Positions 17,633 through 43,516 of a stretch of DNA of 46,358 bases are shown here, in pieces (positions within the stretch are counted from its first letter, which is position 1; every line of letters starts with the position of its first letter). Made by a program: the position numbers and the translations under genes. Origin of the DNA: Candidatus Omnitrophota bacterium (lineage in GTDB: Bacteria > Omnitrophota > Gorgyraeia > Duberdicusellales > 4484-171); contig CP070684.1 in NCBI GenBank assembly GCA_020352775.1, positions 916,424-962,781 of the forward strand, written 5' to 3'. The notes beneath the pieces were generated by a model, which was not told the origin of the DNA, ran no database searches, and worked only from the letters and a program-made list of their open reading frames with translations.

Positions 17633-17652
17633 CTTTATCTCTTGATTAAACC

Positions 17653-18957: not shown

Positions 18958-18965
18958 GAAAGGTC

Positions 18966-19418: not shown

Positions 19419-19442
19419 CAAAAAGTCATTATTTGATAAACT
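19415..19442 (+). promoter_or_regulatory. Possible sigma-70 promoter for the PilZ gene
   Basis: A perfect TTGACA at 19415-19420 overlaps the previous stop codon. With a 16-base gap it faces TAAACT (4 of 6 matches). The start codon is only 6 bases after the -10 box, so transcription would begin at or inside the codon; this makes the call weak. Confidence 0.3.
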
Positions 19443-19448
19443 AAAACT

Positions 19449-24940: not shown

Positions 24941-24948
24941 AAAATAAT

Positions 24949-26055: not shown

Positions 26056-26063
26056 TTAATTTT

Positions 26064-27206: not shown

Positions 27207-27246
27207 TATTTTAATTAGAGCTTTTCAGTGAAGAGGTAACAAATTT

Positions 27247-28440
27247 ATGAGAATAGCCTATGTTACGACGGGCGATGTTTTAAGTACACAGACTAACAGA
27301 AAATGCTGGTGGCCTAAATCACGCCGAGACATAAGGAGCGTAGCTTTTAAAGGAGTAGAGTATCACATCGCAAAAAATTTAGAAAAACATTCTTTATTTC
27401 TTGATTACATTGTTATTAAAAGTAGATTTTCGTTGCGTGCCGCGCTAAAGCGTCGCTTTTATCACTATATTTTTAAACAAAAATATTGTGGTTGGGCCGA
27501 GCCATTTATAATAAAAAATCGGTCACATCAAGTTTCTCGAGGTTTATCAGACGTGAATTCAGATATAGTATTTGTGCCAGAATCTGTAAACACGATAGCT
27601 TATTTAGAATGTAGGCAGCCAATAGTTACATGGTCAGACACACCTTTTGCAGGATTGATAAATTATTATCCTTATCTTACCAATCTTTGTCGGGAGACTG
27701 CTAAAAAAATCTACGCTTTTGAAAAATTAGGATTCCACAAATGCAAACTAATAATATTTTCTTCTGACTGGGCTGCGGATACCGCAATTAAGACTTACGG
27801 ACTCGCGCAATCTAAAGTAAAGATAGTTCCTTTCGGAGCAAATATAAGTTCAGAGATAGATAAAGATAATATCCTTTCCATAATTGAATCCAGAACAACA
27901 GATTCATTAAAGTTACTATTCTTTGGCGTTGATTGGGAAAGAAAAGGCGGAGACTTTACTATTGAAGTGACCAAGGAATTGAATAAAAGCGGCTTACCCA
28001 CAGAGCTTGTTATTGTGGGCGGTCAGCCGGTTACTAGCGATCAATTACCGCCCTTTGTGAAAGTGATAGGCTTTCTTAACAAAGCCATCAAAGAAGATAA
28101 AGAGAAACTAGATACCTTATTAAAAGAATCCCATTTTTTGATTCTACCTACCAGGGCAGAAGCTTATGGTCATGTATTTTGTGAAGCCAATGCTTACGGA
28201 ATACCTTGTCTGGCAACAAACACCGGAGGCATACCCACTATCATTAAGGATGGCGTAAACGGCAAGCTTTTTTCAACGGATGCCAGCGTGTCTGAATACT
28301 GCCATTACATTTATGATTTATTTTCTGATTTTTCTAAATATAAGGAATTAGCATTATCTTCATTTAACGAATACAGAACACGCCTCAATTGGTCAGTTGC
28401 GGTAAGAGCTGTTAAAAAGCTGTTAATGGAAGTGCTATAG
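27247..28440 (+). CDS. GT4 family glycosyltransferase
   Basis: AGAGG lies about 10 bases before the ATG. The N-terminal domain (MRIAYVTTGDVLSTQTNRKC) is less conserved than in its neighbours. The C-terminal domain is clear: KLLFFGVDWERKGGDFTIEV, ELVIVGG and the EX7E motif in FLILPTRAEAYGHVFCEANA, then GIPCLATNTGGIPTII. It has 397 residues. The TAG stop shares its G with the GTG start of the next gene. Confidence 0.9.
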   Translation: MRIAYVTTGDVLSTQTNRKCWWPKSRRDIRSVAFKGVEYHIAKNLEKHSLFLDYIVIKSRFSLRAALKRRFYHYIFKQKYCGWAEPFIIKNRSHQVSRGLSDVNSDIVFVPESVNTIAYLECRQPIVTWSDTPFAGLINYYPYLTNLCRETAKKIYAFEKLGFHKCKLIIFSSDWAADTAIKTYGLAQSKVKIVPFGANISSEIDKDNILSIIESRTTDSLKLLFFGVDWERKGGDFTIEVTKELNKSGLPTELVIVGGQPVTSDQLPPFVKVIGFLNKAIKEDKEKLDTLLKESHFLILPTRAEAYGHVFCEANAYGIPCLATNTGGIPTIIKDGVNGKLFSTDASVSEYCHYIYDLFSDFSKYKELALSSFNEYRTRLNWSVAVRAVKKLLMEVL

Positions 28441-29315
28441 TGAATCTAGATAAAAATAATATGAGAATTTCACTGTTAATTCCTACAAGGAATCGCCTTG
28501 AAGAAATCGAAAGAAATCTTCGGGCTGTTTTCTTTGGTAGTATACAACCTTTTGAAGTTATTGTGTCGGATGATAGCGATGATGAAATTGCTCCCGAGAT
28601 CGAAAGAGTAGCGAAAAAGTTTTCTGAAGTAAAATATGTTAGGGGTCCAAGAAATGGTTTATCTGCCAACAGAAATTGGCTTACAGCCCGTTCTTCAGGT
28701 GATTTTATTGTCTTTGTCGATGATGATGCTCAGGTAGATAAAAATTACTTTAAGAATATTACTGATTGCTATAATAAATATTCTCAACTATATGGAGAAA
28801 AAATAATTATAACCGGCAAAGAGATTCGAAATGGCACGGAGGTAACTCCTTGCGAACTTACCTTCTTAGGTCACCAGAAAAAAATTCCTCAAGATCTAAA
28901 GCATCCCAAAACAATTGTCATAAATAGCACTCTTTTCCCGCGTGATTTGTTTAAGCAGGCTCAGTTTGATGAGAACTTGCATTATGGCTATGATGAAGTT
29001 GATATTATGTGTCAAGCGCAGATTTTAGGCTACAACACAGTATTTTGTCCTGAAGCTGTAAATAAGCATAACAGTTCTTTTGTGAACAGAGAGTTATATG
29101 CGGAGATACTAGAAAGAAACAGAATATATGAGATGCTAAAAATATATGGGATTTATGAAAGAAAGCATTTAAAATGTTTGGTATATTTTATAATCGCTTC
29201 GCTTCATTTATTTATTCATAATATAAAATTTAAGAAGTTTTATTTTTTAAGAGAAATAGCACAAGCCCTTAAGATGTTTTTTGATTTTAAAAAGAAATAT
29301 TATAAAGCTTACTAG
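28440..29315 (+). CDS. GT2 family glycosyltransferase
   Basis: The protein has ISLLIPTRNRLEEIERNL, IVSDDSDDE and IVFVDDDAQVDKNYF, the GT2 nucleotide-sugar and DxD metal sites, and an EVD acidic segment in YGYDEVDIMCQAQ. The GTG at 28440 overlaps the upstream TAG by one base; the ATG at 28461 is an alternative that removes seven residues. It has 291 residues, with a Lys/aromatic-rich C-terminus that may touch the membrane. It is followed by a decayed region. Confidence 0.88.
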   Translation: MNLDKNNMRISLLIPTRNRLEEIERNLRAVFFGSIQPFEVIVSDDSDDEIAPEIERVAKKFSEVKYVRGPRNGLSANRNWLTARSSGDFIVFVDDDAQVDKNYFKNITDCYNKYSQLYGEKIIITGKEIRNGTEVTPCELTFLGHQKKIPQDLKHPKTIVINSTLFPRDLFKQAQFDENLHYGYDEVDIMCQAQILGYNTVFCPEAVNKHNSSFVNRELYAEILERNRIYEMLKIYGIYERKHLKCLVYFIIASLHLFIHNIKFKKFYFLREIAQALKMFFDFKKKYYKAY

Positions 29316-29348
29316 AGTATTAAGAATTTTCGATATTAATAATTTAAT

Positions 29349-29618
29349 ATGAGTAAAATTATTGTTGGTGTGGTAATTCCTGCCTATAACGAAGAACAGG
29401 AAATAGCTGATTTAATTCATAAATTACCAGTTGCGTTATTTACAGGTGACGATTCTTGCGGAATGCGGTCTTGGCCATTTTTTAGATCCTGTTCTTGTAT
29501 TTGGTAACTATGTGGGTGTTTATAGGGAGGTTCAGTCGACGCTCAAAGATTAAAATGCATGCAAAAAGAAAACTGCTTGAGACTCGCTAGAAAAGAGATT
29601 TTAGAAAATACAAATTAA
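29349..29618 (+). pseudogene. Fragments of a decayed GT2 gene and possibly another gene
   Basis: The ATG at 29349 opens IIVGVVIPAYNEEQEIADLI, a textbook GT2 N-terminus, but the frame leaves the family after about 33 residues and stops at 29505. Two further short frames follow (GLGHFLDPVLVFGNYVGVYR ending at 29551, and MQKENCLRLARKEILENTN ending at 29616); I cannot assign them. The whole gap between the flanking genes (29316-29625) looks like the scar of one or two deleted genes. Confidence 0.65.
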
Positions 29619-29625
29619 AATTATT

Positions 29626-31047
29626 GTGTCAGGAGTAGCGCAAAAAAAGATCATTTTTTATTTAGAGCACCCTATTGTTTGCTGGGTTATTTCGCTATTT
29701 ATCGTTTTTGTTGCCTTTGTAATTTTAATTCATGCCACTGCAATATCTAAAATAATTTATCCTGCAATAGCGTTAGCTGTAGGATTGGTGCTTTACTTGC
29801 GTAGTCCTTCACTTTATATAGAATTTACCTGGTGGTTATGGTTTTTAAATCCTTTTATCCGCCGTGTAGTAGATTATCAAGTAGGCTGGGATTATCTCAA
29901 TCCAATTGCGGTGACGCCCCTTTTGGTGACAATGCTTACAATTTTTACCTTAGTACGCCATTCACAAACATTATTTAGACGGGCTTTATTCCCCTTTATA
30001 ATGATACTGGTTGGTATATTGTATTGTTATTTTGTGGGGGTTATTAAGAATGGATTTCTTAGGGCTAGTTATGGTTTTGGTAATTGGGGTGCGCCAGTAC
30101 TTTTTGCTATCCACTTAGTTTTAAATTGGCAAGATTATCCTTATTATCGCAATGCCATTCAAAGAGTCTTTGTGTGGGGAGTTATAGTCATGGGCTTATA
30201 TGGTATTGCTCAATTTATTTCGCCATTAGGCTGGGATAAGTATTGGGTGTCCAACGCCCCAATGGGTTCCATAGGTCTGCCGGAGCCTTTTAGAGTGAGA
30301 ATCTTTAGCACTTTGAATTCACCGGGGCCTTTTGCTGTAGTAATGATGGCAGGGTTAATTTCACTTTTTAGCAGCAAGGGTTTACTGCGCATACTCGCAG
30401 CCATACCAGGTTATGTAAGTTTTTTGCTTTCGTTAGTTCGTTCTGCATGGGGTGGTTGGGTGGTAGCCATACTAGCTATTGCATTAAAAGTAAGTGGCCG
30501 TGTGCGATTCCGTTTTTTAGTACTTGCACTTGTGATAGGTTTGGGTGTTTTACCTTTGGTAAGTTTTGGGCCAATAGCTGAAAGGATTGATAAGCGCTTT
30601 CAAACATTTAGCTATTTTCAGGAGGACGGAAGTTTTAATATCCGGCTAGGGCTATATAGAAAATATTTAGGGTATGCTTTCTTTAATGTTTCAGGGGCAG
30701 GGCTAGGCCATACAGGGGTTTCTACTAAGTTAGGTAGCGAGTCGGGCGAGATGAGCGGAATTAGTCTTGAAAGTGGTGTAATGATAATCCCTTTTACTCT
30801 TGGATGGATTGGGACATTTTTTTATTTATTTGGTTTGGCTTTGTTAATCTCAGCCGTTTTCAGTGGTAAGTATTTTCGGTCTGATCTTTTTGTAATAACA
30901 ACACAAGCAATTATCTTAGCTAGTTTAAGTCAGCTTATTTTCGATAATATTTTAATTAAAGTATCTGGTATGATATTCTGGTCATTTCTTGGCTTAGCAC
31001 TGTCAGCATCTAAGTACAGTGAGTCAAATATTTCGACCATACAGTAA
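29626..31047 (+). CDS. O-antigen polymerase/ligase-like (Wzy/WaaL) membrane protein
   Basis: This 473-residue polytopic protein has about eleven hydrophobic segments. The periplasmic-loop region holds RIFSTLNSPGPFAVVMMAGL, LSLVRSAWGGW and SGAGLGHTGVSTKLG, the arrangement seen in O-antigen ligase/polymerase proteins. It is the second such protein in the window and is not obviously close to the one at 8857-10230. The start is a GTG at 29626 without a clear ribosome site; no other start is available in the first part of the frame. It most likely polymerises the second block's repeat unit. Confidence 0.82.
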   Translation: MSGVAQKKIIFYLEHPIVCWVISLFIVFVAFVILIHATAISKIIYPAIALAVGLVLYLRSPSLYIEFTWWLWFLNPFIRRVVDYQVGWDYLNPIAVTPLLVTMLTIFTLVRHSQTLFRRALFPFIMILVGILYCYFVGVIKNGFLRASYGFGNWGAPVLFAIHLVLNWQDYPYYRNAIQRVFVWGVIVMGLYGIAQFISPLGWDKYWVSNAPMGSIGLPEPFRVRIFSTLNSPGPFAVVMMAGLISLFSSKGLLRILAAIPGYVSFLLSLVRSAWGGWVVAILAIALKVSGRVRFRFLVLALVIGLGVLPLVSFGPIAERIDKRFQTFSYFQEDGSFNIRLGLYRKYLGYAFFNVSGAGLGHTGVSTKLGSESGEMSGISLESGVMIIPFTLGWIGTFFYLFGLALLISAVFSGKYFRSDLFVITTQAIILASLSQLIFDNILIKVSGMIFWSFLGLALSASKYSESNISTIQ

Positions 31048-31078
31048 CTATCCCATTTTTAAAATTATAGGAATAAAA

Positions 31079-32170
31079 ATGGCAGTATTATTTATTGTAA
31101 ATCAATCAGTGAATAGCACATGTGGCAGAAGAATCAGAAACTTTACAAAATATTTTCATAACACAATAGACTATAAAATTTTATATAGAGATAATAAAAA
31201 TAAAATCAAGAGCACTTTTTGCTTTATTTATGAAATTATAAAATACAAACCCAAGATAGTTTATGTAGAACAAATAGCATATTCAGGTTGCATTGCTGCA
31301 ATATTGGCAAAACTTTTTTTACGGGTTAAATATATTTTTTGCGTGAGCGACGCCTATGCAGAGCTTATAAAGACACACCACAACATGCTAATTGTATTTT
31401 TTGCAAAGATAGTTGAAAAGTGGTGGCTTAATTCGGCTGATTTTCTTTTGACCTGCAATCCTTTGCACGCCTCGTTGCTTAAAAGAAAAGAAAAAAAATA
31501 TATCGTTGATTATATAGAACATGGAGTTGATATTAACGCTTTTAAGTCATCGAAAGAGAAAAATTTGTGCTACCAACTAGGGCTAAAAGATTGTTTAGTT
31601 GTTGGTGTTGTAGGGTCCTTGAAATGGAGTAAGCGGTATAGATTTTGCTATGGATGGGACATAGTTGAAGCACTGAGATATCTCAAAGATTTAAATATAA
31701 AAGCATTAATTATAGGCAGCGGTTCTGGATCACCGCATTTAAAGGAGGTAGTAAAAGAATATGATTTACAAGAGAAGGTGATTTTTACAGGTGCTGTGCC
31801 TTATGAACAGATTGCTAAATACATAAATTGTATGGACGTTTGTGTTTCTACCCAATCAAATGATTTAGTAGGCTATGTAAGATGTCCGACAAAGCTTTCT
31901 GAATATATGGCATGTGGTAAATACATTATATCAACAAATGTTGGGTATGCGACGTTGTATGGTGATAAAGTAGGGACATTATTGCCCTATAAGGATGTTA
32001 AAGATAATTCTTATCCACGACGATTGGCAGAACATATACGACATTTGTATTTTAACAGGGGCTTGCTCCAGAAAGGACAAAATGGGCGAGAAATTGCAGA
32101 AGAAAAACTTGATAACAGAGTTCTTTCGAAAAAATTAGAGACGATACTTCTGGATATGATTAACCATTAG
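31079..32170 (+). CDS. GT4 family glycosyltransferase
   Basis: The ATG at 31079 has TAGGA about 7 bases upstream and is preferred to an in-frame GTG at 31019 that lies within the polymerase gene. The protein begins AVLFIVNQSVNSTCGRRIRN. VVGVVGSLKWSKRYRF and FTGAVPYEQIAKYINCMDVC mark the second GT-B domain, and CPTKLSEYMACGKYIISTNV replaces the classical EX7E region, as in WbuB-like GT4 proteins. It has 363 residues. Confidence 0.85.
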   Translation: MAVLFIVNQSVNSTCGRRIRNFTKYFHNTIDYKILYRDNKNKIKSTFCFIYEIIKYKPKIVYVEQIAYSGCIAAILAKLFLRVKYIFCVSDAYAELIKTHHNMLIVFFAKIVEKWWLNSADFLLTCNPLHASLLKRKEKKYIVDYIEHGVDINAFKSSKEKNLCYQLGLKDCLVVGVVGSLKWSKRYRFCYGWDIVEALRYLKDLNIKALIIGSGSGSPHLKEVVKEYDLQEKVIFTGAVPYEQIAKYINCMDVCVSTQSNDLVGYVRCPTKLSEYMACGKYIISTNVGYATLYGDKVGTLLPYKDVKDNSYPRRLAEHIRHLYFNRGLLQKGQNGREIAEEKLDNRVLSKKLETILLDMINH

Positions 32171-32204
32171 CAAATTATATGAGTAAGTCATCATTGATAA
32201 AAAC

Positions 32205-33143
32205 ATGATAATTTCAGTAATTGTACCAACCTATCGCCGCCCTAAAAGTCTGGCGCGATGCCTTGAAGCGTTGCACAAACAAACTCGATCTGCTGATGAA
32301 ATTTTATTAATTGTACGTAATAATGATAGTGAAACCCTAGATTTTTTAAGATCAATTGATTCTGAGAGGTTAAACATACGTATATGTACAGTCACAGCTC
32401 CAGGACAAATTGCTGCCTTGAATGTTGGTTTGGATGCGGCTCGCGGGGAAATCATTGCTTTTACCGACGATGATGCTACTCCTTATCCTGATTGGCTTGA
32501 GCGGATTGAAGAACATTTCTTGGCAGATCAACAAATAGGAGGCGTAGGTGGACGCGATATAGTGCAGCTTGATGAAGAGAGAGTTAAAGAAACAAAAAAG
32601 GTTGTAGGTAAAGTCCAATGGTTTGGAGGTTATATTGGTAATCATCATTTGGGTTTTGGTGGGCCAAGGGAAGTTGACATACTCAAAGGCACCAATATGA
32701 GCTATCGGTGGAAAGCCTTAGGTGGCATTCGTTTCGATGAGCGTTTGCATGGAACAGGCGCCCAGGTGCATAATGATATGGCTTTTAGTTTGACGGTTAA
32801 GCGCGCGGGGTGGAGACTTATTTATGACCCCGCTGTAAGCGTGGATCATTACCCGGATCCACGTTTCGGTAGAGATCAAAGAACAGGATTTAACAACATT
32901 GCGATAAAGGACAGAGTGCACAATGAAACTTTTATATTGTTAGGATATTTGTCGACTGCTCAGCGTTTCACATTCATTCTATGGGCATTTTTTATTGGAT
33001 CAAGATCTTCACCCGGTTTTGTTCAGTTGCTGCGGTTTTTTCCAAAAAAAGGTTTATTGGCTCTGCGGAAATGGTTTGCCACAATGTGTGGACGTTGGGA
33101 AGGGCGGAAGACATGGCTGGAATCTTCAAAAGCAAAGAAATAG
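32205..33143 (+). CDS. GT2 family glycosyltransferase (paralogue of 6763-7692)
   Basis: The protein has ISVIVPTYRRPKSLARCLEA, AFTDDDATPYPDWLERIEEH with DDD at residues 88-90, and the shared GGVGGRD, GNHHLGFGGPREVD and GTGAQ blocks. It aligns with the protein at 6763-7692 without gaps through the first 90 residues. A hydrophobic stretch (FILWAFFIGSRSSPGF) matches the paralogue's. It has 312 residues. The two likely use the same donor or make the same linkage type in the two glycan blocks (inference). Confidence 0.9.
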   Translation: MIISVIVPTYRRPKSLARCLEALHKQTRSADEILLIVRNNDSETLDFLRSIDSERLNIRICTVTAPGQIAALNVGLDAARGEIIAFTDDDATPYPDWLERIEEHFLADQQIGGVGGRDIVQLDEERVKETKKVVGKVQWFGGYIGNHHLGFGGPREVDILKGTNMSYRWKALGGIRFDERLHGTGAQVHNDMAFSLTVKRAGWRLIYDPAVSVDHYPDPRFGRDQRTGFNNIAIKDRVHNETFILLGYLSTAQRFTFILWAFFIGSRSSPGFVQLLRFFPKKGLLALRKWFATMCGRWEGRKTWLESSKAKK

Positions 33144-33161
33144 ACTTTATGAATTTAAGTA

Positions 33162-34298
33162 ATGAAGATAGCGATTGTTACGCATAATTTAGACAGAAAA
33201 GGAGGCCAGGGTCAAGTAAATTATGAGATTGCCCAAGAGGTTCTGCGACAAGGTCATCAGCTAATTATGATTGCGAGCAATATTGATTCTGACCTGAGAC
33301 AGCACCCTTTAGCTATATGCGTGTTTATTCCGGTTCATGGCTGGCCGACACAACTCCTGCGTAACTTAATTTTTGCTTGGCGCAGTAGCTATTGGCTACA
33401 TAAGCACCTTCAATCGTTTGATTTAGCTGTAGCCACGGGGTTTACTACTTGGGCTTCAGCAGATGTAAATATAGTGCAATTTGTACACAGCGCTTGGTTG
33501 CGATTAGTATTTTGTGGGGCGGGTTTAGAGAAAGGTTTTTATGGAATATACCAGAGATTATATACAGCCATAAATGCTTGGCTAGAAAAAAAATCTTTTC
33601 GTAAATCAAAAGTAATTGTGGCGGTATCGGAAAAGATTCGACAGGAGCTTATGGATATCATTGCTTTTAAAGAAAGGATTTATGTTATTCATAATGGCGT
33701 GGATTTAGATGAATTTTTTTCTGGCTCGGGTGATAGAGTAAAGTTTGGTCTTCCTGAAGGGGTTGCGCTTGCGGTTTTTGTGGGAGACATAAAAACTCAT
33801 CGTAAAAATCTAGACACAGTGCTTATGGCATTAGCTGAGGTATCTGAATTGCATTTAGCAGTAGTGGGCAATACGAAAAGGAGTAAATATCCTAAGTTAG
33901 CAGAGAAACTTGGTTTAAGCGGTAGAGCGCATTTTATGGGCTACAGGAAAGATGTTGCTGAAATCATGCGTGCCTCGGATTTTTTTGTTTTTCCTTCGCG
34001 TTATGATCCATGGGGAATTGTTGTTTCTGAAGCAATGGCTTCGGGTTTGCCCATTATTACTGCTAAAACAGTTGGAGCATCTGAAATCGTTACTCCGCAA
34101 TGCGGAGTAGTTTTGGATGATCCAAATGATGTGGAAGGTTTGGTAAAGGCATTGAGAATGCTTGTCGACAACTCAGATTTACGAAAACAAATGGGACAGG
34201 CTGCGAGGGTTATAGCTGAACAACATAGCTGGGTTAACAAAGCTAAAGAATATGTAGATTTATTTGAAGAGATTTGCAAAAGCAAAGTTAACAAATAG
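33162..34298 (+). CDS. GT4 family glycosyltransferase
   Basis: The N-terminus KIAIVTHNLDRKGGQGQVNY has the GT4 glycine-rich loop. VYVIHNGVDLDEFF-like hinge, LAVFVGDIKTHRKNLDTVLM, and FPSRYDPWGIVVSEAMASGL follow; the first Glu of EX7E is Asp here. It has 378 residues. It starts 18 bases after the GT2 gene and is the last gene of the second block, followed by an intrinsic terminator. Confidence 0.9.
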   Translation: MKIAIVTHNLDRKGGQGQVNYEIAQEVLRQGHQLIMIASNIDSDLRQHPLAICVFIPVHGWPTQLLRNLIFAWRSSYWLHKHLQSFDLAVATGFTTWASADVNIVQFVHSAWLRLVFCGAGLEKGFYGIYQRLYTAINAWLEKKSFRKSKVIVAVSEKIRQELMDIIAFKERIYVIHNGVDLDEFFSGSGDRVKFGLPEGVALAVFVGDIKTHRKNLDTVLMALAEVSELHLAVVGNTKRSKYPKLAEKLGLSGRAHFMGYRKDVAEIMRASDFFVFPSRYDPWGIVVSEAMASGLPIITAKTVGASEIVTPQCGVVLDDPNDVEGLVKALRMLVDNSDLRKQMGQAARVIAEQHSWVNKAKEYVDLFEEICKSKVNK

Positions 34299-34413: not shown

Positions 34414-36063
34414 TTAGCGCAATTTAAAAATGCGGATTTTTGAAATCGGCTCGCTATAAACTTCTGTAAAATATCTTCTATTTTCAAATTTTTTCAAGTC
34501 TACATCCACCCCAAAACCATCCTTATATTCTGAAGCGAATCCCCCTCCTGTTATTAACCCCGGGCTGATAAATATGTGGCTACATCCGTAAGTCTGCATC
34601 AGCTCAGCTGCTTCTTTTGGATCGGGAGTAGCATAAATGCTATAGATATCATTATGCACAACTGCCGGTACAGTTACAAAAGGTATATTTACATTGCGTA
34701 AAGGAAATAATGCCCCCAAGAGTGCCCTGCCAGCGCATACGCCTGCAAGCACCTGCGAACGGTAATAGTCTGCGATTATCCTATCGTTTTGGGTGCTATT
34801 GTTTCTAAACCACACCGCTGCCTCATATTCTTTTGTATTTATTCCTGCATTTTGAAAACGCCCTGATATTTTGAACAAACCGTTGAGGTCAACCGTCAGT
34901 ATCCCGGCTAAAAATATAACCACAATAACACAGGCGGTTTTCATTTGTTTTATTTCTAAAGCAATAAAGCGTGCGATTAATGCCCCAACGATTAAAGCAA
35001 GGGGTTGGGCAAAGAAGCAAAAAAAACGAAATCCTTCTAAAGGCTTAAAGAGGGTGGACCAGCTAAGGTCGAGACGGTTAAACATTTTAAGGATAATTTC
35101 ATTTTGTGTTTCCAAAAAAGGAAGGAACATCCATACTAACGCAAGCCAATTGTGGCGATTAGCTGAATTATTTTTTCGTAAGACCCAAAATATATAGATA
35201 ACTAAAAATTCTATTTTTAAAATAGCTGTGATTACTCCGTAATCCTTCAGCTGTGATAGATGCGATTGTAAGCCCGAAGAAGTTGTAAGAGCGAATATCC
35301 ACCACCAATACAGATTTTTTGGGGCCCACCAGAAAGCAGTAATTATTTGCGAAAATAACACTGCCAAGAAAAAGTCCGAGATTTTTTTAGCTTGATTCTT
35401 AGTTTTGATAAAAAGCAGAAGCGAAATAAATAAAAGGATGATTAGCGCAAGAAAATAAGTAAGATGCGTTAAAAAGTTTATGGCCAAAAGGCTGCCCAGC
35501 CCTAAAATCCAGAATAAGCGATTTTTATTTGGGAGATTATCATTTTTAGACCTTAGCAGTAGTAAAATTATATAAATTGGGAGTAAAAATAAGGTCAATG
35601 AAGCAGGCGTTGCGATGCCTGTCCAATAAATGAATGCCGGCGTAAGCGTTAAAATTATCATGCTTATATATCCTGTGCACCTGCCATACAGCCAGCGCGC
35701 CAAGAAAGAGAAGGGAAGCGGAGCAAGGGATTCAATAAAGGGAATGATCCTGGAGCAAACAGTTGGTAAGTCTAATGCTGAAATCTTTGATAGCATAGCC
35801 AGGGCGATTGGACCAAAGGGAGGATACCAGAAAGGGACTTTGCCGTAGGCGATATAGCGCAGGCAATATTCAGGAAGCCTGCCATGGTCTAGCATATACT
35901 GCGCCATGGCAAGGCGCTCCCATATATCTGCATTCATGGTCAGAAGATGTGGGTCTATCGCAAGTCTTGGCTGCAATCTAAAATAAAGGCCAAAAAGATA
36001 GGCGATTAATAAGAATAAAAATTCAATCCAGTTTATGCGAAATGTTTTTATCGGTTTATCCAT
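34414..36063 (-). CDS. STT3-like GT-C membrane glycosyltransferase
   Basis: This 549-residue protein has about 11 hydrophobic segments and a C-terminal soluble domain (from about 405). The first periplasmic loop has the acidic IDPHLLTMNADIWERLAMAQ and HGRLPE, then YPPFGPIALAMLSKI, the layout of STT3/PglB and related GT-C enzymes that use polyprenyl-linked sugars. The soluble part has AAVWFRNNSTQNDRIIADYY followed by ATPDPKEAAELMQTYGCSHI, as in STT3-type proteins. The WWDYG peptide-binding motif is not there: DYY at about 432-434 is in its place. It may transfer glycan or single sugars to lipid, glycan or protein. It lies alone on the minus strand, convergent with the second block. Confidence 0.72.
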   Translation of the reverse strand: MDKPIKTFRINWIEFLFLLIAYLFGLYFRLQPRLAIDPHLLTMNADIWERLAMAQYMLDHGRLPEYCLRYIAYGKVPFWYPPFGPIALAMLSKISALDLPTVCSRIIPFIESLAPLPFSFLARWLYGRCTGYISMIILTLTPAFIYWTGIATPASLTLFLLPIYIILLLLRSKNDNLPNKNRLFWILGLGSLLAINFLTHLTYFLALIILLFISLLLFIKTKNQAKKISDFFLAVLFSQIITAFWWAPKNLYWWWIFALTTSSGLQSHLSQLKDYGVITAILKIEFLVIYIFWVLRKNNSANRHNWLALVWMFLPFLETQNEIILKMFNRLDLSWSTLFKPLEGFRFFCFFAQPLALIVGALIARFIALEIKQMKTACVIVVIFLAGILTVDLNGLFKISGRFQNAGINTKEYEAAVWFRNNSTQNDRIIADYYRSQVLAGVCAGRALLGALFPLRNVNIPFVTVPAVVHNDIYSIYATPDPKEAAELMQTYGCSHIFISPGLITGGGFASEYKDGFGVDVDLKKFENRRYFTEVYSEPISKIRIFKLR

Positions 36064-36116
36064 GCTCGTTAGATTAAAAACTTATTTTGATACAAATAAT
36101 TATTGTAACATAATAA

Positions 36117-36145
36117 ATTATACAATAAGAAAAAGAATATGTTAA
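36117..36145 (-). promoter_or_regulatory. Sigma-70-like promoter for the STT3-like gene
   Basis: On the minus strand TTAACA (36140-36145) and TATAAT (36117-36122) are separated by exactly 17 bases. The start codon is about 53 bases after the -10 box, leaving a normal leader. Confidence 0.65.
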
Positions 36146-36212
36146 GGGTTGTCTTTATCGAAGTGAGCGCAGCGTCTATAATCTTAAGAATATTTATATC
36201 AGTTTACAATGA

Positions 36213-36240
36213 TTGCATTATGGGGATTTCGGTATATAAT
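36213..36240 (+). promoter_or_regulatory. Sigma-70-like promoter for the flavoprotein gene
   Basis: A perfect TATAAT at 36235-36240 has TTGCAT 16 bases upstream at 36213-36218. The start codon is 18 bases after the -10 box, with GAAGAG in between as ribosome site. Confidence 0.6.
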
Positions 36241-36258
36241 TTTTGAAGAGCATAGAAT

Positions 36259-37374
36259 ATGGTAAGGAAAAAACCTAAAATTGTTATTGTGGGCGCCGGG
36301 CCAATTGGCTGCTACCTTGCCCAACTTCTGAAAGAGCGGGGATTTAGCCCTTTATTGATTGAGGAGCATGAGGAGTTGGGCAGGCCTGTGCATTGTGCGG
36401 GGTTGGTTGGTAAAAAAGTAATTGATGAGATACAAATTCCCTTTCCACGGAACTGTATCATCAATATCATTAATGGAGGGGTAGTACATCTAGGCAAAAA
36501 TAGCATTACCCTTAGAAGAGAAGGAGTCGCCTATGTGATTGACCGGGAAAAATTTGATAAAGCAATGGGAAAGAATTTAAATATTATATTTGGGACTAAA
36601 TATTTAGGGATTGAGGAGAAAGAAAAATATATCATTGAAACTGACAAAGGAGAACTAGAGGCAGATATCGTTATTGGTGCTGATGGCGCCAGTTCTTCGG
36701 TGCGAAATTTTGTTATCCCTGATAAACAGATAAGCTTTTTAAAGGGAGTCCAGTTTAGAATAAAAAACGATGTTTTTCAAAAAGACATGGCTGAAGTATT
36801 TGTAAGGAAGCCTTATTTTTATTGGGTAATTCCCGAAAAGGATCATACCGTGCGTTTAGGTGTGCTTTCGCAAGCCCCCTATCATGACCTCTTGGAATTT
36901 ATTAAGGAAAGAAAATTAAAGGGAGAGATTTTGGAAAAGTTTGGTGGCCTTGTCACCTTGACCCATTTCTCACCATTAAATAGAAAAAAGGCATTTTTGG
37001 TGGGGGATAGCGCCGCACAAATAAAACCTCTTTCTTACGGCGGAATATATATGGGCATGAAAGCAGCCGAAATCCTCGCAGACTGTATATCTAAGGAGAA
37101 ATACAGTGATTATTCGTATTTGTGGGCAAAAAAGTTTGGTCGGGAAATAGACCTTTCTTTAAGGGCGAGGGATATCTTTCAGAAAATGACTGATGAAGAG
37201 CTAAAAGAAATATTCTCTTTTGCCAAAAGAAAAGCTTTATTTATAGAACAGAAAGGTAATTTTGAGAATCACTCCTCGCTATTTAGGGAATTTTTAAAGA
37301 ACCCTTCTACCTCAAAAGAAATGGCAGGTATTCTTTTAAAGATTATTAAAGCGGATTTCAGAGAAAGTATCTAG
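36259..37374 (+). CDS. Geranylgeranyl-reductase family FAD-dependent oxidoreductase
   Basis: Members use FAD to reduce double bonds of isoprenoid chains (archaeal lipids, dolichol-type carriers, chlorophyll or menaquinone side chains). The protein shows the FAD-binding GAGPIG at residues 12-17, the acidic LLIEEHEELGRPVHCAGLVG that is typical of the GGR group, GADGASSSVR near 140, and LVGDSAAQIKPLSYGGIYMG near 247. It has 371 residues. It is divergent from the STT3-like gene with promoters in the shared 195-base gap. A role in saturating the polyprenyl carrier of the glycans is an attractive guess; a housekeeping quinone or lipid role is as likely. Confidence 0.85.
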   Translation: MVRKKPKIVIVGAGPIGCYLAQLLKERGFSPLLIEEHEELGRPVHCAGLVGKKVIDEIQIPFPRNCIINIINGGVVHLGKNSITLRREGVAYVIDREKFDKAMGKNLNIIFGTKYLGIEEKEKYIIETDKGELEADIVIGADGASSSVRNFVIPDKQISFLKGVQFRIKNDVFQKDMAEVFVRKPYFYWVIPEKDHTVRLGVLSQAPYHDLLEFIKERKLKGEILEKFGGLVTLTHFSPLNRKKAFLVGDSAAQIKPLSYGGIYMGMKAAEILADCISKEKYSDYSYLWAKKFGREIDLSLRARDIFQKMTDEELKEIFSFAKRKALFIEQKGNFENHSSLFREFLKNPSTSKEMAGILLKIIKADFRESI

Positions 37375-37406: not shown

Positions 37407-37760
37407 TCAATAGCGTCTTCGGTCTTCTTCGGCAGGTAATTCGGGTTCTTCAAGCACAATATCTTTTATTTCCTTTCTAATTTCTTCAAGAATAAAGAGG
37501 CTAGAGTAGGCTAAGTCAGTCACTGCCGGTATAAAACTCTCTTCAAAGTAATCTCCTAGTTCCTCTTCTTCGTATGGTCGAGTAGGAGGAGGAGTATCAG
37601 TGGAAGTAGTAGTAGGTGGAGGTGGTGGTGGAGGAGGTGGTGGTGGAGTTGTACTTATAGGTGTAGTTTTAGGCAAATTAATAGCATATAAGAAAATAGG
37701 ATTAAGTACTAACCCTATGATTAATAATACCCCTGTTACTACCCACACTACCTTTTTCAT
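37407..37760 (-). CDS. Small membrane-anchored protein with a run of 11 prolines
   Basis: I recognise no family. The 117-residue protein has one N-terminal membrane helix (VVWVVTGVLLIIGLVLN), then a Thr/Ser/Pro linker with eleven consecutive prolines and a second PPP, then an acidic, helix-prone C-terminus (EEEELGDYFEESF; ILEEIRKEIKDIVLEEPELP) ending RRRY. The layout suggests a periplasmic spacer protein anchored in the inner membrane. The proline run comes from repeated GGW codons on the opposite strand. It has its own promoter and is convergent with the flavoprotein gene. Confidence 0.7.
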   Translation of the reverse strand: MKKVVWVVTGVLLIIGLVLNPIFLYAINLPKTTPISTTPPPPPPPPPPPTTTSTDTPPPTRPYEEEELGDYFEESFIPAVTDLAYSSLFILEEIRKEIKDIVLEEPELPAEEDRRRY

Positions 37761-37775
37761 TTTGCCACCACATTA

Positions 37776-37804
37776 AAAATACCATAAAAACCCTTTCTTG
37801 TCAA
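37776..37804 (-). promoter_or_regulatory. Sigma-70-like promoter for the proline-run protein
   Basis: On the minus strand a perfect TTGACA (37799-37804) is followed after 17 bases by TATTTT (37776-37781). Only 15 bases separate the -10 box from the ATG, with GGTGG as possible ribosome site. Confidence 0.6.
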
Positions 37805-37839
37805 TCTACCATAAGATCTTGATAATTAAATAGTTATGC

Positions 37840-37873
37840 ATAAAATAAAAAGCGCCTTTAAAATCAAGGCGCT
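37840..37873 (-). terminator. Intrinsic terminator behind the secreted-protein gene
   Basis: AGCGCCTT (37851-37858) and AAGGCGCT (37866-37873) form a perfect 8-base-pair stem with a 7-base loop. Reading on the minus strand, TTTTTATTTTA follows directly. It lies about 85 bases after the stop at 37959. Confidence 0.85.
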
Positions 37874-37958
37874 AAATTTTATAGAGCTCTCTTTTTGTTT
37901 TCCCTGACTTGAACTTTTTCTTGTAGTTGAAAAATTGCTTTGGCCAGCGCCCTTTAAA

Positions 37959-38504
37959 TCAAGGGCTTGCTAACACCTGGTTGGGAATGCAATCACTATC
38001 TTCTTCCAGCAAAACCGTGTCCCGCGTGATTGGGTTTTTTTTACGAAATTCGTTAAATGCATCATCTAATTGCGCACATACCAGCGCATAGCCTGAGTCT
38101 AAATTGGTTATTATATCGCTCCATCCGCTCCAGTCGTAGGTTATATAATAATATGGATCGTCAGTAGACACCACAAAAGTTCCGCTCATTTGATATGGTT
38201 GGCTGAAGCAATCTTTAGGTGGTTTACCCCCATCAATCAAAAGAACTACCCAGGGCCCAAATGCAATACCGCCTTCAGCTACATCTTCGTCTATGCGCAG
38301 AATAAAATGCGCTATTCCCGATGCATCGCATCCACTCTCTTCTTCGATAAAGCGAATGCTTACCCCCGGTGCTGCGGTTGAAGTTGGAGGTGTCACTTCA
38401 TTTGTAATTATTACCAAATCTTCTGTCCTTGATTGCACGGCAAAGACTCCTAACGCCCAAATAACCCCTACAAATATCACCAATAGATAATTCCTTTTCT
38501 TCAT
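37959..38504 (-). CDS. Secreted or periplasmic protein of unknown function, four Cys
   Basis: I recognise no family. The N-terminus MKKRNYLLVIFVGVIWALGV is a signal peptide, probably cleaved near FAVQS. The mature part of about 155 residues has four cysteines (in SGCDA, KDCFS, LVCAQ and SDCIP), enough for two disulfides, and an aromatic/acidic strand-rich region (DDPYYYITYDWSGWSDIITN). A normal ribosome site (GAGAAGG) lies upstream. It is flanked by its own promoter and terminator, so it forms a single-gene unit divergent from the export operon. Confidence 0.72.
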   Translation of the reverse strand: MKKRNYLLVIFVGVIWALGVFAVQSRTEDLVIITNEVTPPTSTAAPGVSIRFIEEESGCDASGIAHFILRIDEDVAEGGIAFGPWVVLLIDGGKPPKDCFSQPYQMSGTFVVSTDDPYYYITYDWSGWSDIITNLDSGYALVCAQLDDAFNEFRKKNPITRDTVLLEEDSDCIPNQVLASP

Positions 38505-38898: not shown

Positions 38899-39204
38899 AT
38901 GATAGATAAAAAAAAGATATTCCTAAAAAATATCCTTCCTTTAATTATCACCTGTGTTGCTGCCCTCATCTTTTTCTTAAGTTACAACCATTATCTTCTC
39001 GATAAAACCCTGGCTAACCTCAAAATCTCCCTTAAAGAATTAGAAGCAGCTGATAATTTGGAATTGGCAAGAGCAGTCAAGGGTATATTGGACGATACCT
39101 TTATTATGGAGGTTGCAAAAGAAGAACTCGATGTTGCATCCTTAGCAAAAATGGAATTTTCCGGTCAGATAGTAGGAACTATGACTGATATGGTGCAGCT
39201 TTAA
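38899..39204 (+). CDS. N-terminal part of the TPR protein, ended by an in-frame TAA
   Basis: A membrane anchor (NILPLIITCVAALIFFLSYN) is followed by a helical segment (LANLKISLKELEAADNLELA) to residue 101. The same frame continues after the TAA at 39202-39204 without another stop straight into the TPR protein (DETHFVRDTIQK, then RKRIEKAKRQAERLEYIELQ). So this piece and 39424-40620 look like one 573-residue gene with a nonsense codon at position 102. It is either a disrupted gene, an assembly error, a read-through case, or a true short protein. Confidence 0.6.
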   Translation: MIDKKKIFLKNILPLIITCVAALIFFLSYNHYLLDKTLANLKISLKELEAADNLELARAVKGILDDTFIMEVAKEELDVASLAKMEFSGQIVGTMTDMVQL

Positions 39205-39423
39205 GATGAAACGCATTTTGTCCGGGACACAATCCAAAAGAAAGAAAAAAAACGCCCCGCTTTTCTTAATGCCTTTGATAATATAGTAATCCATATCTTT
39301 GGCGGCCGCAGGGAAGATAATCCGGATCAGATAAGAAAGAGAATAGAGAAGGCTAAGCGCCAAGCAGAGCGTCTGGAGTATATAGAGCTTCAAGAAAAAT
39401 ACCTGGAAATCGCCCGTTTATAC

Positions 39424-40620
39424 ATGAAGCTTAAAGAATGGAATCAGGCTCTTGCTTACTTAAACGAAGTACCTGGTATCGACCCGCGCACTAAATTTGC
39501 TCGGAAAGCAAGCCTGTATCGAGGAGTAGTTTATAAGCTAAAAGGAGATTATGAGGAGGCAAGACGCATTTTTAATGAGATTAAAGACGAACTGGGAGGA
39601 GAGCTGGGTGCTTTTTCTTACTATGAGGAGGGTGCTACTCTTTATCGAATGGGAAAGTTTGATGAGGCAGCAAAGGTATTTGAAGAAGCTTTTCAAAAAG
39701 ACCCTACATTGCAAGTCAATCAAATTTCTCAGTTTCGCGCCGGCTACATCAAAATGTATGATTTAAGGCGCGTGGAGAAATTTGAAGAAATTCCCCCTAT
39801 TGAAATAAGAGAGATTCCTGAGGTCGTCCCCCCCAAAGTAGAAGAAGAGGAGATCGTGGAGGCTGTTAAGGAAATCGTTCGTATAGCCCCCGAGACTGAT
39901 TTGGCGGCACAAATGGCGCGCATTTATATGCTGCGAGGATTTGAGCTAGCAAGACAAGGGCATCAGCTCCTAAAGCGGCAAGATGTTAGAAGGGGCAGGG
40001 AACGGTTTCGTTTAGCGCGGGAACAATTTGATTTGGCCATTGATCTTGATCCCAAAAGCGGGCTTTCTCGCAGCGGAAGGGCAATATCACTTTATTTTCT
40101 GAAAGATTTCGATGAGGCATTACAGGAAGCAAAGAGAGCAAAGGAAATATCTCCCGATGATGCTGAGGTTTTGGCAAATTTAGGATATATTTATGCCCAG
40201 CGTGCTATGATTGATAGGGCAATAGAGGAATACCGCGATGCGGTTAAACTCGCACCTGATTCCTATGTCTTTAATTACAACTTAGGTACTTTATATGCTA
40301 TGAAAGAAAACTATTCCAAAGCAACCGTACATCTTGCGAAAGCAAAGCAAATCAATCCCACCCTTCCTGAGATATATAATAATCTGGGGTGCGTTTACTG
40401 GGAGGATAAAAAATATAACCGGGCCAAGCAAGAATTTGAAAAGGGACTGAGCATGGAAAAAAGCTACCTGGAGTCCCATTATAATTTAGGGGTGGTGCTT
40501 TATAATCTCGAACAATACGAAAAAGCAAAAAAAGAGTTTGATTGGGTTAAGAAGGTGAGGCCGGCATACAGAAAAACAAAGTGGTACTTAGACCATATCA
40601 AGAAGAAATTGAGCGATTAG
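39424..40620 (+). CDS. TPR-repeat protein of the polysaccharide export module
   Basis: The protein of 398 residues from the ATG at 39424 has at least two TPR units in its first 100 residues (for example ALAYLNEVPGI and YRMGKFDEAAKVFEEAF). A Glu/Pro-rich linker follows (EEIPPIEIREIPEVVPPKVE), then about six TPR units to the end (GYIYAQRAMIDRAIEEYRDA, YNLGTLYAMKENYSKA, YNLGVVLYNLEQYEKAKKEF). Family members act as periplasmic scaffolds in export complexes. Coding sequence clearly extends upstream of this ATG to the TAA at 39202, and there is no ribosome site, so the true product probably includes the N-terminal anchor at 38899. Confidence 0.8.
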   Translation: MKLKEWNQALAYLNEVPGIDPRTKFARKASLYRGVVYKLKGDYEEARRIFNEIKDELGGELGAFSYYEEGATLYRMGKFDEAAKVFEEAFQKDPTLQVNQISQFRAGYIKMYDLRRVEKFEEIPPIEIREIPEVVPPKVEEEEIVEAVKEIVRIAPETDLAAQMARIYMLRGFELARQGHQLLKRQDVRRGRERFRLAREQFDLAIDLDPKSGLSRSGRAISLYFLKDFDEALQEAKRAKEISPDDAEVLANLGYIYAQRAMIDRAIEEYRDAVKLAPDSYVFNYNLGTLYAMKENYSKATVHLAKAKQINPTLPEIYNNLGCVYWEDKKYNRAKQEFEKGLSMEKSYLESHYNLGVVLYNLEQYEKAKKEFDWVKKVRPAYRKTKWYLDHIKKKLSD

Positions 40621-40621
40621 A

Positions 40622-40649
40622 TTGACAGGGTTATTCGCTTTGTTATACT
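40622..40649 (+). promoter_or_regulatory. Sigma-70-like promoter in front of the barrel gene
   Basis: A perfect TTGACA at 40622-40627 and TATACT at 40644-40649 are 16 bases apart, in the 41-base gap between two genes. The ATG is 12 bases after the -10 box, so the transcript would be nearly leaderless, although AGAGG lies close to the ATG. Confidence 0.65.
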
Positions 40650-40661
40650 AATAAAGAGGTT

Positions 40662-41972
40662 ATGAAATTAAAAAAAGTATTGATTATTCTTATCATAAGT
40701 TGTATAGGATTTAGCTGTTATGCCCAGGTAAGCCGCCGGGATGTAATTTCTCTTACTTTAGATTATTATGAGCTAAAGCAAAAAGCTGCCACGAAAAAGG
40801 AAAAATTAGAAGAAAAGAGAGAAAGAATAGAAAAAGAGAAAAGAGAGGTTGTGGGAGGAGAGAAGTGGGAGCGGATGAAAGCGCTGTTTAAAAAATATTT
40901 TAGGGAAAACCTGAAGCTTTTTGCCGAACTCAGCTTAGAATATAATGACAACATTTATAGAACTCATACTGATGAGACCAGCGATTTTATCACGCGGTTT
41001 AGTGCCGGAGCCAATTTTATACCAAAAGTAACAGAAGAAGTAGCTAAGACCGGCATATTTTTTTCACTGCGGGGAGATGCCTTAGGGTATAGCAGTGAAT
41101 CAAGCGAAAGTACAGGGAATTTATATTCCAAAGTCGGTTTAACCCACAGATTTACAAAGATACACGGCATCACTTTTGATTTTGGAGCTGATAAAATCCT
41201 TGCTACCGCAAGCGAGATTACCGGGACCGGCGTTGTGGGAGAATTGGTAGATCACTGGAGAATTAGTTATGGAGCAAAACTGGATAGTGCGGTGGGTCGG
41301 TTTCCCTGGGACGCGAGTTATCGTCTTGAAGAAAACAGGTTCGAAGGAAAATTTGATTATTCAGATTACGATAAGGAAGTTGTTTCTTTTACGGGGTATA
41401 TACCATTGCGAGGAAAGCGGAATCTTTTTGCAGAGTATGAAATGGGAGATGTGGAGTACCCTAATAGGTTAAATGCTGGTTGGGATTATGATAAGTTTTG
41501 GCTAGGAGCTAGAGGAAAAATATTTCGTAAATTTGATGGATTAATAAAATTTGGATGGGGTAATTATGAGTTTGCAAATGGGAGAGAGAAAGATACAGAG
41601 GATTGGAGAGCCGAATTAGGCTATACCCCACGCAAAAATTTTATTTTGCGCTTTGCCGGAGGCCAATCCATCGAGCCAACTACATATACCGGAGACGATC
41701 ATTCAAAACAAACTGATTTAGAATTTAGTTGCAGGTATCTACCCCCCAAACTAAAGAAAGTTATTTTAGGGGCCGGTATTTCCTGGACTAATTATGATTT
41801 TGATACCGGAAGGGAAGATGATTTATGGCAGTATTATGCGCGCGGCGATTACAAGATGAATAAATGGTTTAGGATTGCATTACGTTATGAGCACAACAGT
41901 AGAGATTCCAACATTCCAATCAGGGAATATGAGCAAAATATTGTATCGTTGATACTGAGGGGGGATTTCTGA
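40662..41972 (+). CDS. Outer-membrane beta-barrel protein (BBP2-like)
   Basis: The signal peptide is MKLKKVLIILIISCIGFSCY with cleavage near AQ. A charged coiled-coil segment (residues about 35-62, Lys/Glu-rich) comes next, followed by alternating amphipathic strands: FAELSLEYNDNIYRTHTDET, ITRFSAGANFIP, then regular repeats of aromatic strands. The final strand ends NIVSLILRGDF with the C-terminal Phe that the BAM complex recognises. This fits the outer-membrane beta-barrel family found in polysaccharide loci (putative BBP2_2). Its 436 residues suggest 16-18 strands. The TGA shares its A with the ATG of the export-protein gene. Confidence 0.8.
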   Translation: MKLKKVLIILIISCIGFSCYAQVSRRDVISLTLDYYELKQKAATKKEKLEEKRERIEKEKREVVGGEKWERMKALFKKYFRENLKLFAELSLEYNDNIYRTHTDETSDFITRFSAGANFIPKVTEEVAKTGIFFSLRGDALGYSSESSESTGNLYSKVGLTHRFTKIHGITFDFGADKILATASEITGTGVVGELVDHWRISYGAKLDSAVGRFPWDASYRLEENRFEGKFDYSDYDKEVVSFTGYIPLRGKRNLFAEYEMGDVEYPNRLNAGWDYDKFWLGARGKIFRKFDGLIKFGWGNYEFANGREKDTEDWRAELGYTPRKNFILRFAGGQSIEPTTYTGDDHSKQTDLEFSCRYLPPKLKKVILGAGISWTNYDFDTGREDDLWQYYARGDYKMNKWFRIALRYEHNSRDSNIPIREYEQNIVSLILRGDF

Positions 41973-43417
41973 TGAGAAAATGTTTATTATTTTTATTCGT
42001 TGTTTTTGTTATGGCTACGTTTTCATATGCTTATGCCCAGTCTCCTTCAATAATAAGAATTGGGGATGTGGTAGATATTAATGTCTATGGAGAGCCCCAT
42101 CTAAACGCAAAACTTAAAGTTTCCCAATACGGCACTATTCATTATCTGCGTGTAGGAAAAATTGAGGTAGCAGGGCTTGGTTCAGAAGAGCTAGCTCGAA
42201 AAATTGAGTCATTATTAAGAAAGCACTACCTCTATCTGAGAGCCCCTCAGGTAACAGTGCTGGTCAGTCGCGAAGAACCCTATTATCCAGAAGAGCCACG
42301 CTATGAGCTGCCGCGCTATGAAGAGCCAGCTCGTTATTATGAAGATATGCCTCGCTACGAAGAAAAGCCTTATTATCCTAAGGTAAGCCGGCCAGGATAC
42401 AGAGTGAGTGATGTTTCTAGCCGGAGAGAATATACATTTGCCAGAGACGTAAGGCCAACTTATCAGATAGCTCCCGGCGATAGGCTAGCAGTTTCTGTGT
42501 ACGGTGAACCTGGATTTGATAGAGAAGTGCGGGTTTCCGAGAGAGGTACGATCCTGTACCCACCTTTAGGAGAAGTTTATGTAGAGGGCCTTGCGGTCGA
42601 AGAGGCAACGAGAAAATTAGAAGGGTTGCTCGGAAAAGATTATTTTGTAGATCCTAAAGTAAGCGTTGATATCGTAGAATATGGAAAATTTTATGTCCAA
42701 GGAGAAGTGGATGCGCCGGGAAGCTTTGAGCTAAGAGGCTCTCTTTCTTTAGTTGACGCCCTTGTGTATGCCGGCGGCCCTACTGAAAAAGCTGAATTAT
42801 CTCACGTAAAAGTGTTTAGAACCTACGGTGAAGCAGGTGAAAAAGAGTTTAGTGTAGATTTGTCACGAGAGGGGGCGAATTTCTTTTTAAAGCCGATGGA
42901 TAGAATAATGGTTGAGCCCAGAGGTAAAATTTACATAATCGGTGCGGTGGCTAGCCCTGGAAATTACCACATCACCAGAGAAACCAAGACTCTTCAGGAT
43001 GCATTGAGCTTTTTGGCCGGGGGGCCAAAAGAAAGCGCAAACGTTTCTGCCATAGAAGTCGTAAGAAAAGAAGCTGGCAGAGATAAAACCTATACCTTGG
43101 ATTTAGCGATTCATAGTGATTTTCCCTTAAAAGAGCTTGATAGAATTACTGTAAAAGAACTGGGAACTATTTCTGTTTTTGGTGAAGTAAGAAGCCCGGG
43201 ACGCTATCATTTAAAAGAAGAGCTTACGGTGGTTGAATTGATTGCTTTGGCAGGAGGATTTACTGAAGATGCTGCCCAGAATGCAGTGAAAGTGATCAGA
43301 AGAGAAGGTAAGACTTTTAGGGTTCCGGTAGCATCTATTTTATCAAGTGGAGATATGTCACGGGATGTTAAACTTAAGGACGGAGATACTGTCATAATTC
43401 CGGAGTCATGGTTCTGA
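41972..43417 (+). CDS. Wza-like polysaccharide export protein with duplicated Poly_export domain
   Basis: A signal peptide (MRKCLLFLFVVFVMATFSYA) is present but no lipobox Cys follows, so it may not be a lipoprotein. The first Poly_export domain is at about 25-105 (IIRIGDVVDINVYGEPHLNA) and a Tyr/Pro/Glu-rich linker at about 106-150. A second Poly_export domain follows at about 165-238 (YQIAPGDRLAVSVYGEPGFD). Three SLBB domains begin near 239 (KFYVQGEVDAPGSF), 317 (KIYIIGAVASPGNYH) and 397 (TISVFGEVRSPGRYH). GGGG lies before the ATG. The protein would form the periplasm-spanning export channel for the polymer made by the transferases. A second Poly_export domain is unusual; typical Wza has one. 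Confidence 0.9.
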   Translation: MRKCLLFLFVVFVMATFSYAYAQSPSIIRIGDVVDINVYGEPHLNAKLKVSQYGTIHYLRVGKIEVAGLGSEELARKIESLLRKHYLYLRAPQVTVLVSREEPYYPEEPRYELPRYEEPARYYEDMPRYEEKPYYPKVSRPGYRVSDVSSRREYTFARDVRPTYQIAPGDRLAVSVYGEPGFDREVRVSERGTILYPPLGEVYVEGLAVEEATRKLEGLLGKDYFVDPKVSVDIVEYGKFYVQGEVDAPGSFELRGSLSLVDALVYAGGPTEKAELSHVKVFRTYGEAGEKEFSVDLSREGANFFLKPMDRIMVEPRGKIYIIGAVASPGNYHITRETKTLQDALSFLAGGPKESANVSAIEVVRKEAGRDKTYTLDLAIHSDFPLKELDRITVKELGTISVFGEVRSPGRYHLKEELTVVELIALAGGFTEDAAQNAVKVIRREGKTFRVPVASILSSGDMSRDVKLKDGDTVIIPESWF

Positions 43418-43516
43418 TAAGTTTTTAATGGATAGCATATTTAGCATAGCGAGGAGATAGAAAAAATAAAAAGTCTTCCCATTCCCCTAATAGTTTTAGA
43501 ATAAAAGAATAATATA

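Follow-up and report, generated by a model that had tools for sequence, protein, structure and literature searches.

A geranylgeranyl reductase homologue as a regular member of a surface-polysaccharide module in Omnitrophota

The closest described relatives of the protein considered here are the archaeal geranylgeranyl reductases (GGRs) of Thermoplasma acidophilum (TaGGR; structure 3OZ2) and Sulfolobus acidocaldarius (SaGGR; 3ATQ). In the GGRs that have been studied, a catalytic cysteine (Cys45 in TaGGR, Cys47 in SaGGR) is kept in all active enzymes, and the substrate is guided by a YxWxFP motif (PMC6309074, PMC12004948); ScGGR is active despite having REG at a further motif, GGG (PMC6309074). 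The bacterial family member HepR, from Mycolicibacterium, reduces heptaprenyl diphosphate, a Z,E-mixed polyprenyl diphosphate, and the Haloferax GGR saturates dolichol phosphate; the passage on HepR describes no linkage to a polysaccharide operon (PMC10821996). Here we analyse a GGR homologue encoded in a 46,358-nt stretch of DNA (the window; G000:C1:916424-962781) from a single-contig Omnitrophota genome, G000, of 1,275,236 bp. Its gene (36259-37374, plus strand; 371 aa) is divergent from the gene of an STT3-related membrane protein (34414-36063, minus strand), with 195 bp between them. An earlier note on this DNA had described the two open reading frames (ORFs) and the glycan blocks flanking them; a check of the ORFs gave exactly these coordinates and this layout, and domain searches of the window showed that the blocks are real.

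A second point of comparison is provided by Wzx/Wzy-type exopolysaccharide clusters of the XrtA/EpsE-like kind. Their PF02397 phosphoglycosyl transferase (PGT), Wza, Wzz/BY-kinase and EpsL-like barrel are also found in the Omnitrophota module described below. Unlike those clusters, the Omnitrophota module has a GGR-family reductase and HAMP-GGDEF, TPR and PilZ proteins as co-located core members.

The GGR gene in a conserved polysaccharide module

Gene surroundings were compared in the family of G000 (35 genomes, G000 and 34 others) and in a phylum sample of 384 Omnitrophota genomes. Orthologues of the GGR homologue, 56-64% identical, are present in 10 of the 34 other family genomes, and the close form of the protein (E below 1e-90) occurs in 19 of the 384. 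The gene order that recurs in the relatives is PF02397 PGT, GGR, HAMP-GGDEF protein, small membrane protein, TPR protein, PilZ protein, outer-membrane barrel, Wza, Wzz/BY-kinase and ligase/polymerase. Directly 5' of GGR there is usually the PF02397 gene and directly 3' of it the HAMP-GGDEF gene, and at one locus (L026) there are overlaps of a few bases among the PGT, GGR and GGDEF ORFs.

At least two of eight module markers were found at 21 of 24 close-GGR loci, compared to none of nine control loci, which were drawn from the same genomes or from STT3-like loci. The three exceptions are L081, a 4.4-kb contig on which glycosyltransferase genes adjoin GGR; L075, an 8-kb contig that carries a GGDEF gene; and L028 in genome G006, which has GGR and the GGDEF module 25 kb from each other on one contig. 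Eight more distant GGR-like proteins (about 25% identical) have settings that are similar, not identical, to those of the close-GGR loci, with at least two markers at three loci and one marker at four more.

The presence of the HAMP-GGDEF gene follows that of GGR closely. An orthologue was found in all 11 GGR genomes of the family and in 2 of the 24 that lack GGR (Fisher test, 1.9e-7), although the GGR genomes are related and the test therefore overstates their independence, so that this and the other p-value given here are guides only. In G018, which has the GGDEF gene without GGR, the contig ends together with the GGDEF copy, exactly at the position where GGR is expected.

It is concluded that GGR is a regular member of a conserved Omnitrophota surface-polysaccharide module. 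The PF02397 transferase, Wza, Wzz/BY-kinase, outer-membrane barrel, GGDEF and PilZ genes share one locus with it, which makes this a PGT-initiated exopolysaccharide module. The GGR loci surveyed are from Omnitrophota; a scan of genome contigs gave four GGR loci, all of them Omnitrophota, and a plasmid search gave distant GGR-family proteins only. Literature searches on GGR together with exopolysaccharide, Omnitrophota or undecaprenyl found no description of this association, and no paper in the library searched connects GGR to exopolysaccharide clusters of such a type. The association looks new, while the enzyme class itself is known.

In the window the module is present in a rearranged order, with all its genes on the plus strand. 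The first part (16211-19997) comprises the PGT, a polyprenyl-phosphate hexose-1-phosphate transferase that matches PF02397 and exceeds the TIGR03025 cut-off (16211-17632), the HAMP-GGDEF protein (17653-18957), the small membrane protein kept across the relatives' modules (18966-19418) and a PilZ-domain protein of the cyclic di-GMP (c-di-GMP) receptor type (19449-19997). These are followed by an ABC exporter (20196-22061), a block of GT4/GT2 glycosyltransferase genes (22720-34298) that includes a Wzy/ligase-like protein (29626-31047), the STT3-like gene and GGR. Downstream of GGR, at 38899-46356, are the TPR gene (38899-40620), the outer-membrane β-barrel of BBP2_2 (PEP-CTERM/EpsL-like) type (40662-41972), the Wza-like export protein with Poly_export and SLBB domains (41972-43417), the Wzz/BY-kinase chain-length protein (43517-45349) and an O-antigen-ligase/polymerase-like protein (Wzy_C; 45346-46356), whose ORF runs off the end of the stretch.

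Several of these genes have features of their own. The HAMP-GGDEF protein has the signature GGDDF in place of the usual GGDEF or GGEEF, and may be a maker of c-di-GMP. The ABC exporter is MsbA/HepA-like and is a candidate flippase for lipid-linked glycans; a 52% identical orthologue comes after GGR in G006 (L028). The TPR gene is present as two ORFs, divided by a single in-frame TAA (39202-39204) with the frame otherwise open on both sides, which may reflect either a genuine nonsense mutation or an error in the sequence. Between GGR and the TPR gene are two small minus-strand ORFs (37407-38504) with N-terminal signal-like segments, one of which carries a long proline run; they match no Pfam family and have no counterparts in the family loci read. 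Elsewhere, in genome G004, the gene directly 5' of GGDEF encodes a phosphoglycosyl transferase fused to a PglF-like epimerase/dehydratase (L104:910-3363).

Family and probable substrate of the GGR homologue

The assignment to the GGR family, made already in the earlier note, is well founded. The protein scores 157.4 bits with TIGR02032 (158.2 in the genome search), slightly below the cut-off of 158.8, and all 29 aligned Omnitrophota homologues match this model, the best at 4.3e-64. None of the equivalog models comes close, with 65 bits for BchP/ChlP, 62.5 for CbrA (cut-off 303) and 52-58 for archaeal DGGGPL reductases. A profile of the 29 homologues finds TaGGR (3OZ2) at 9.9e-43, the next structure being a halogenase at 4.9e-17. 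A structural model built from five sequences (pLDDT 67, pTM 0.71) gave six best Foldseek matches that are all GGRs, with 3OZ2 at 1e-23.

The motifs agree with this. The GxGxxG motif for flavin adenine dinucleotide (FAD) reads GAGPIG, and Cys46, in PVHCAGLV, is invariant in all 29 homologues and aligns with the catalytic cysteine of TaGGR. The R and FD of RxxFD (96-100), F187, W189 and P192 are also invariant, and an LxGD motif is found at residues 247-250. The FAD fold, catalytic cysteine, aromatic motif region, RxxFD and LxGD are thus common to the archaeal and Omnitrophota proteins. The latter differ in being only 22% identical to the archaeal GGRs and shorter, in having FxWxxP for YxWxFP and YGG for GGG, and in being linked to polysaccharide genes, with no convincing GGGPS in G000. 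Judged by its sequence, the product of 36259-37374 is a geranylgeranyl-reductase-family flavoprotein.

We propose that it acts as an accessory enzyme of a c-di-GMP-linked, PGT-initiated exopolysaccharide system, saturating part of the polyprenyl carrier, and give this a probability of roughly 0.5. The gene found most constantly beside GGR encodes the transferase that attaches the first sugar to polyprenyl phosphate, and GGR is therefore best explained as a reductase of the polyprenyl chain; we infer that its substrate is the polyprenyl chain of the glycan carrier. HepR and the Haloferax enzyme are precedents, HepR being compared by description only. The GGDEF and PilZ proteins in the module suggest control of the pathway by c-di-GMP. 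The FAD-dependent reductase would add hydrogen to at least one isoprene unit of a long-chain polyprenyl phosphate or polyprenyl-diphosphate glycan, either before or after sugar loading, yielding a carrier that is partly saturated and resembles dolichol. The glycan on this carrier would then be flipped, polymerised, and exported by the Wzz, Wza and outer-membrane barrel machinery.

In addition to the relatedness of the GGR genomes noted above, several observations weigh against this proposal. In G004 the module is present without GGR, the PGT-PglF gene running directly into the GGDEF gene, and so GGR is not indispensable. In the window itself, GGR is displaced from the PGT and GGDEF genes. The region equivalent to YxWxFP (187-192) reads FYWVIP, such that the tyrosine is replaced by the invariant F187 and the final phenylalanine by I or V. 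The GGG motif (298-300 in SaGGR) reads YGG, although its GG is invariant in the Omnitrophota set and distant members have GGG or QGG. Archaeal lipids, chlorophyll, menaquinone and sterol are further substrates of the GGR family, and membership of it therefore does not fix the substrate.

Another envelope molecule is thus a possible substrate. GGR could belong to the module and yet act on a sugar or lipid group borne by the polysaccharide, or on an isoprenoid anchor, the prenyl-reductase fold having been repurposed. The synteny evidence applies equally to this suggestion. In a tree of Omnitrophota proteins and six outside references, which did not include MenJ and HepR, the close Omnitrophota GGRs form a divergent clade on a long branch, set apart from the references with 100% support. 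The shortened loop before FxWxxP, the YGG motif and the score slightly below the TIGR02032 cut-off point in the same direction. E. coli CbrA (NF008519), a member of the same superfamily, is annotated by NCBI as a colicin M resistance protein, implying that the family includes envelope functions unrelated to quinones, although CbrA belongs to a different clade and adjoins dgo genes rather than a polysaccharide operon. However, the catalytic cysteine, the tryptophan of the substrate-guiding motif and the FAD motifs are all retained, as they would be in an enzyme that still reduces prenyl chains, and the searches brought up no member of this subfamily that acts on sugars. We consider a repurposed enzyme rather unlikely, and clearly less so than the next alternative.

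This is that GGR is a MenJ-like menaquinone reductase, or a prenyl reductase of membrane lipids, which merely happens to be located in a polysaccharide locus. G000 does encode MenA (TIGR00751, 135.9 bits; cut-off 102), beside a polyprenyl synthase, as would suit a role in menaquinone synthesis. The locus concerned, where a long-chain polyprenyl synthase gene adjoins MenA (L097:7236-9241), looks similar by coordinates in many relatives. However, UbiA/MenA is found in 8 of 11 family genomes with GGR and 13 of 24 without (p = 0.46), which is no association, and three genomes (G006, G010 and G025) have GGR and no UbiA match. The futalosine-pathway proteins MqnA/D are absent from the whole family, the classical MenFDHCEB pathway not having been searched for. 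Matches to GGGPS/PcrB are short and C-terminal, and reach the cut-off in 5 of 58 genomes, G000 not being one of them. The MenJ equivalog model NF045655 is matched by only 2 of the 29 GGR members (best 3.9e-14), and the window protein is not among the matches at E<=1e-10. The association with the module is also too regular for a chance location to be likely. A quinone or membrane-lipid reductase is accordingly improbable.

Carrier reduction, which the earlier note had suggested, is thus plausible and better supported than at first reading, though in a context of polysaccharide export rather than protein glycosylation. Synteny and co-occurrence with the PGT-initiated module, with no link to MenA, tie GGR to glycan assembly and not to quinones or membrane lipids.

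The STT3-like neighbour

The divergent gene encodes a protein of 549 aa with about 10 predicted transmembrane segments. Searches of Pfam, NCBIfam and PDB with the single sequence gave no significant match; PF02516 does not recognise it and has no match at all in G000, and a PDB search with a four-sequence profile also found nothing. An AlphaFold model of the protein alone has a pLDDT of 40. Three clear relatives (41-53% identity) were found among the 384 Omnitrophota genomes, making 4 of 384 in total, and these match PMT_2 and STT3 weakly. Comparison by hhalign of the STT3-like profile with that of 28 Omnitrophota STT3s gave a probability of 96.8% (E 2.9e-10, 441 columns), compared to at most 2.5% for reversed, block-shuffled and unrelated membrane-protein controls. 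The match is far above the controls, and it is therefore concluded that this is an STT3-related protein of the GT-C glycosyltransferase type. The name given to it in the earlier note is thus correct at the level of fold family.

Several STT3/PglB/AglB features align. The acid of the first loop, D46, is invariant in the STT3-like family; NADIWER (DIWxR) aligns with DCWHWxR of the STT3s, giving the common pattern D-x-W-x-x-R; and in KPLEGFR346 the arginine aligns with that of the GFRF/GVRF stretch. Unlike these enzymes, which have about 850 aa, the protein lacks the C-terminal domain. The second acidic motif (of GWFDxD type), SVxE and WWDxG are found in none of the four members; ADYYxSQ occupies the WWDxG position, except in one member whose truncated ORF ends before that site. 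By those criteria it is therefore not an oligosaccharyltransferase.

Nor is its pairing with GGR conserved. None of the 57 nearest relatives has the gene, the ten family relatives with GGR included, and it occurs in 2 of the 19 close-GGR genomes of the phylum sample, namely G000 itself and G322. No GGR was found on the contig pieces read around the three other STT3-like genes, whose neighbours are type II secretion and type IV pilus (T2SS/T4P) genes, tRNA synthetases and a transposase.

The earlier note had proposed a bacterial system devoted to glycosylation, with a carrier reduced by GGR and an STT3-like enzyme that moves the glycan from it to an acceptor such as protein. The two genes are indeed adjacent here, the relationship to STT3 is real, and G322 encodes both, on separate short contigs. 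However, the STT3-like gene is missing from 10 of 10 family relatives with GGR and from 17 of the 19 close-GGR genomes, and its family lacks motifs that nearly all Omnitrophota STT3s keep, so that glycan transfer to protein is not indicated. We regard such a system as very improbable. The note had named two outcomes as counting against it: the absence of a conserved pairing, which is what was found, and a grouping of GGR with menaquinone- or lipid-specific reductases, which was not. The STT3-like protein is a rare, lineage-specific GT-C enzyme, separate from GGR and not its partner; its most probable role is the transfer of a sugar or glycan as part of the glycan block.

Genuine PF02516 STT3s, above the family cut-off, are present in 128 of the 384 Omnitrophota genomes, G000 having none. 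Among 30 of their loci (L108-L137), most encode about 850 aa and 27 have WWDxG, and these proteins are possibly widespread bacterial oligosaccharyltransferases. A literature search found no paper joining STT3 or oligosaccharyltransferase with Omnitrophota/Omnitrophica.

Meaning for Omnitrophota

Saturation of the glycan-carrying lipid distinguishes the dolichol of eukaryotes and archaea, while known bacterial glycan carriers are generally unsaturated, mycobacteria being the exception. We suggest, tentatively and with more doubt than for the accessory role itself, that in Omnitrophota an exopolysaccharide under c-di-GMP control has a carrier of its own, a partly saturated polyprenyl phosphate resembling dolichol, with the reductase encoded within the polysaccharide operon and the reduction serving as a pathway-specific tag or to fit the carrier to its flippase and polymerase. 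For annotation, it is predicted that GGR-family proteins adjoining phosphoglycosyl transferases should not be called chlorophyll or lipid reductases. If the suggestion is true, a conserved, operon-borne prenyl reductase would make the purpose of carrier reduction accessible to genetics, one possible purpose being to separate the carriers of polysaccharide and peptidoglycan.

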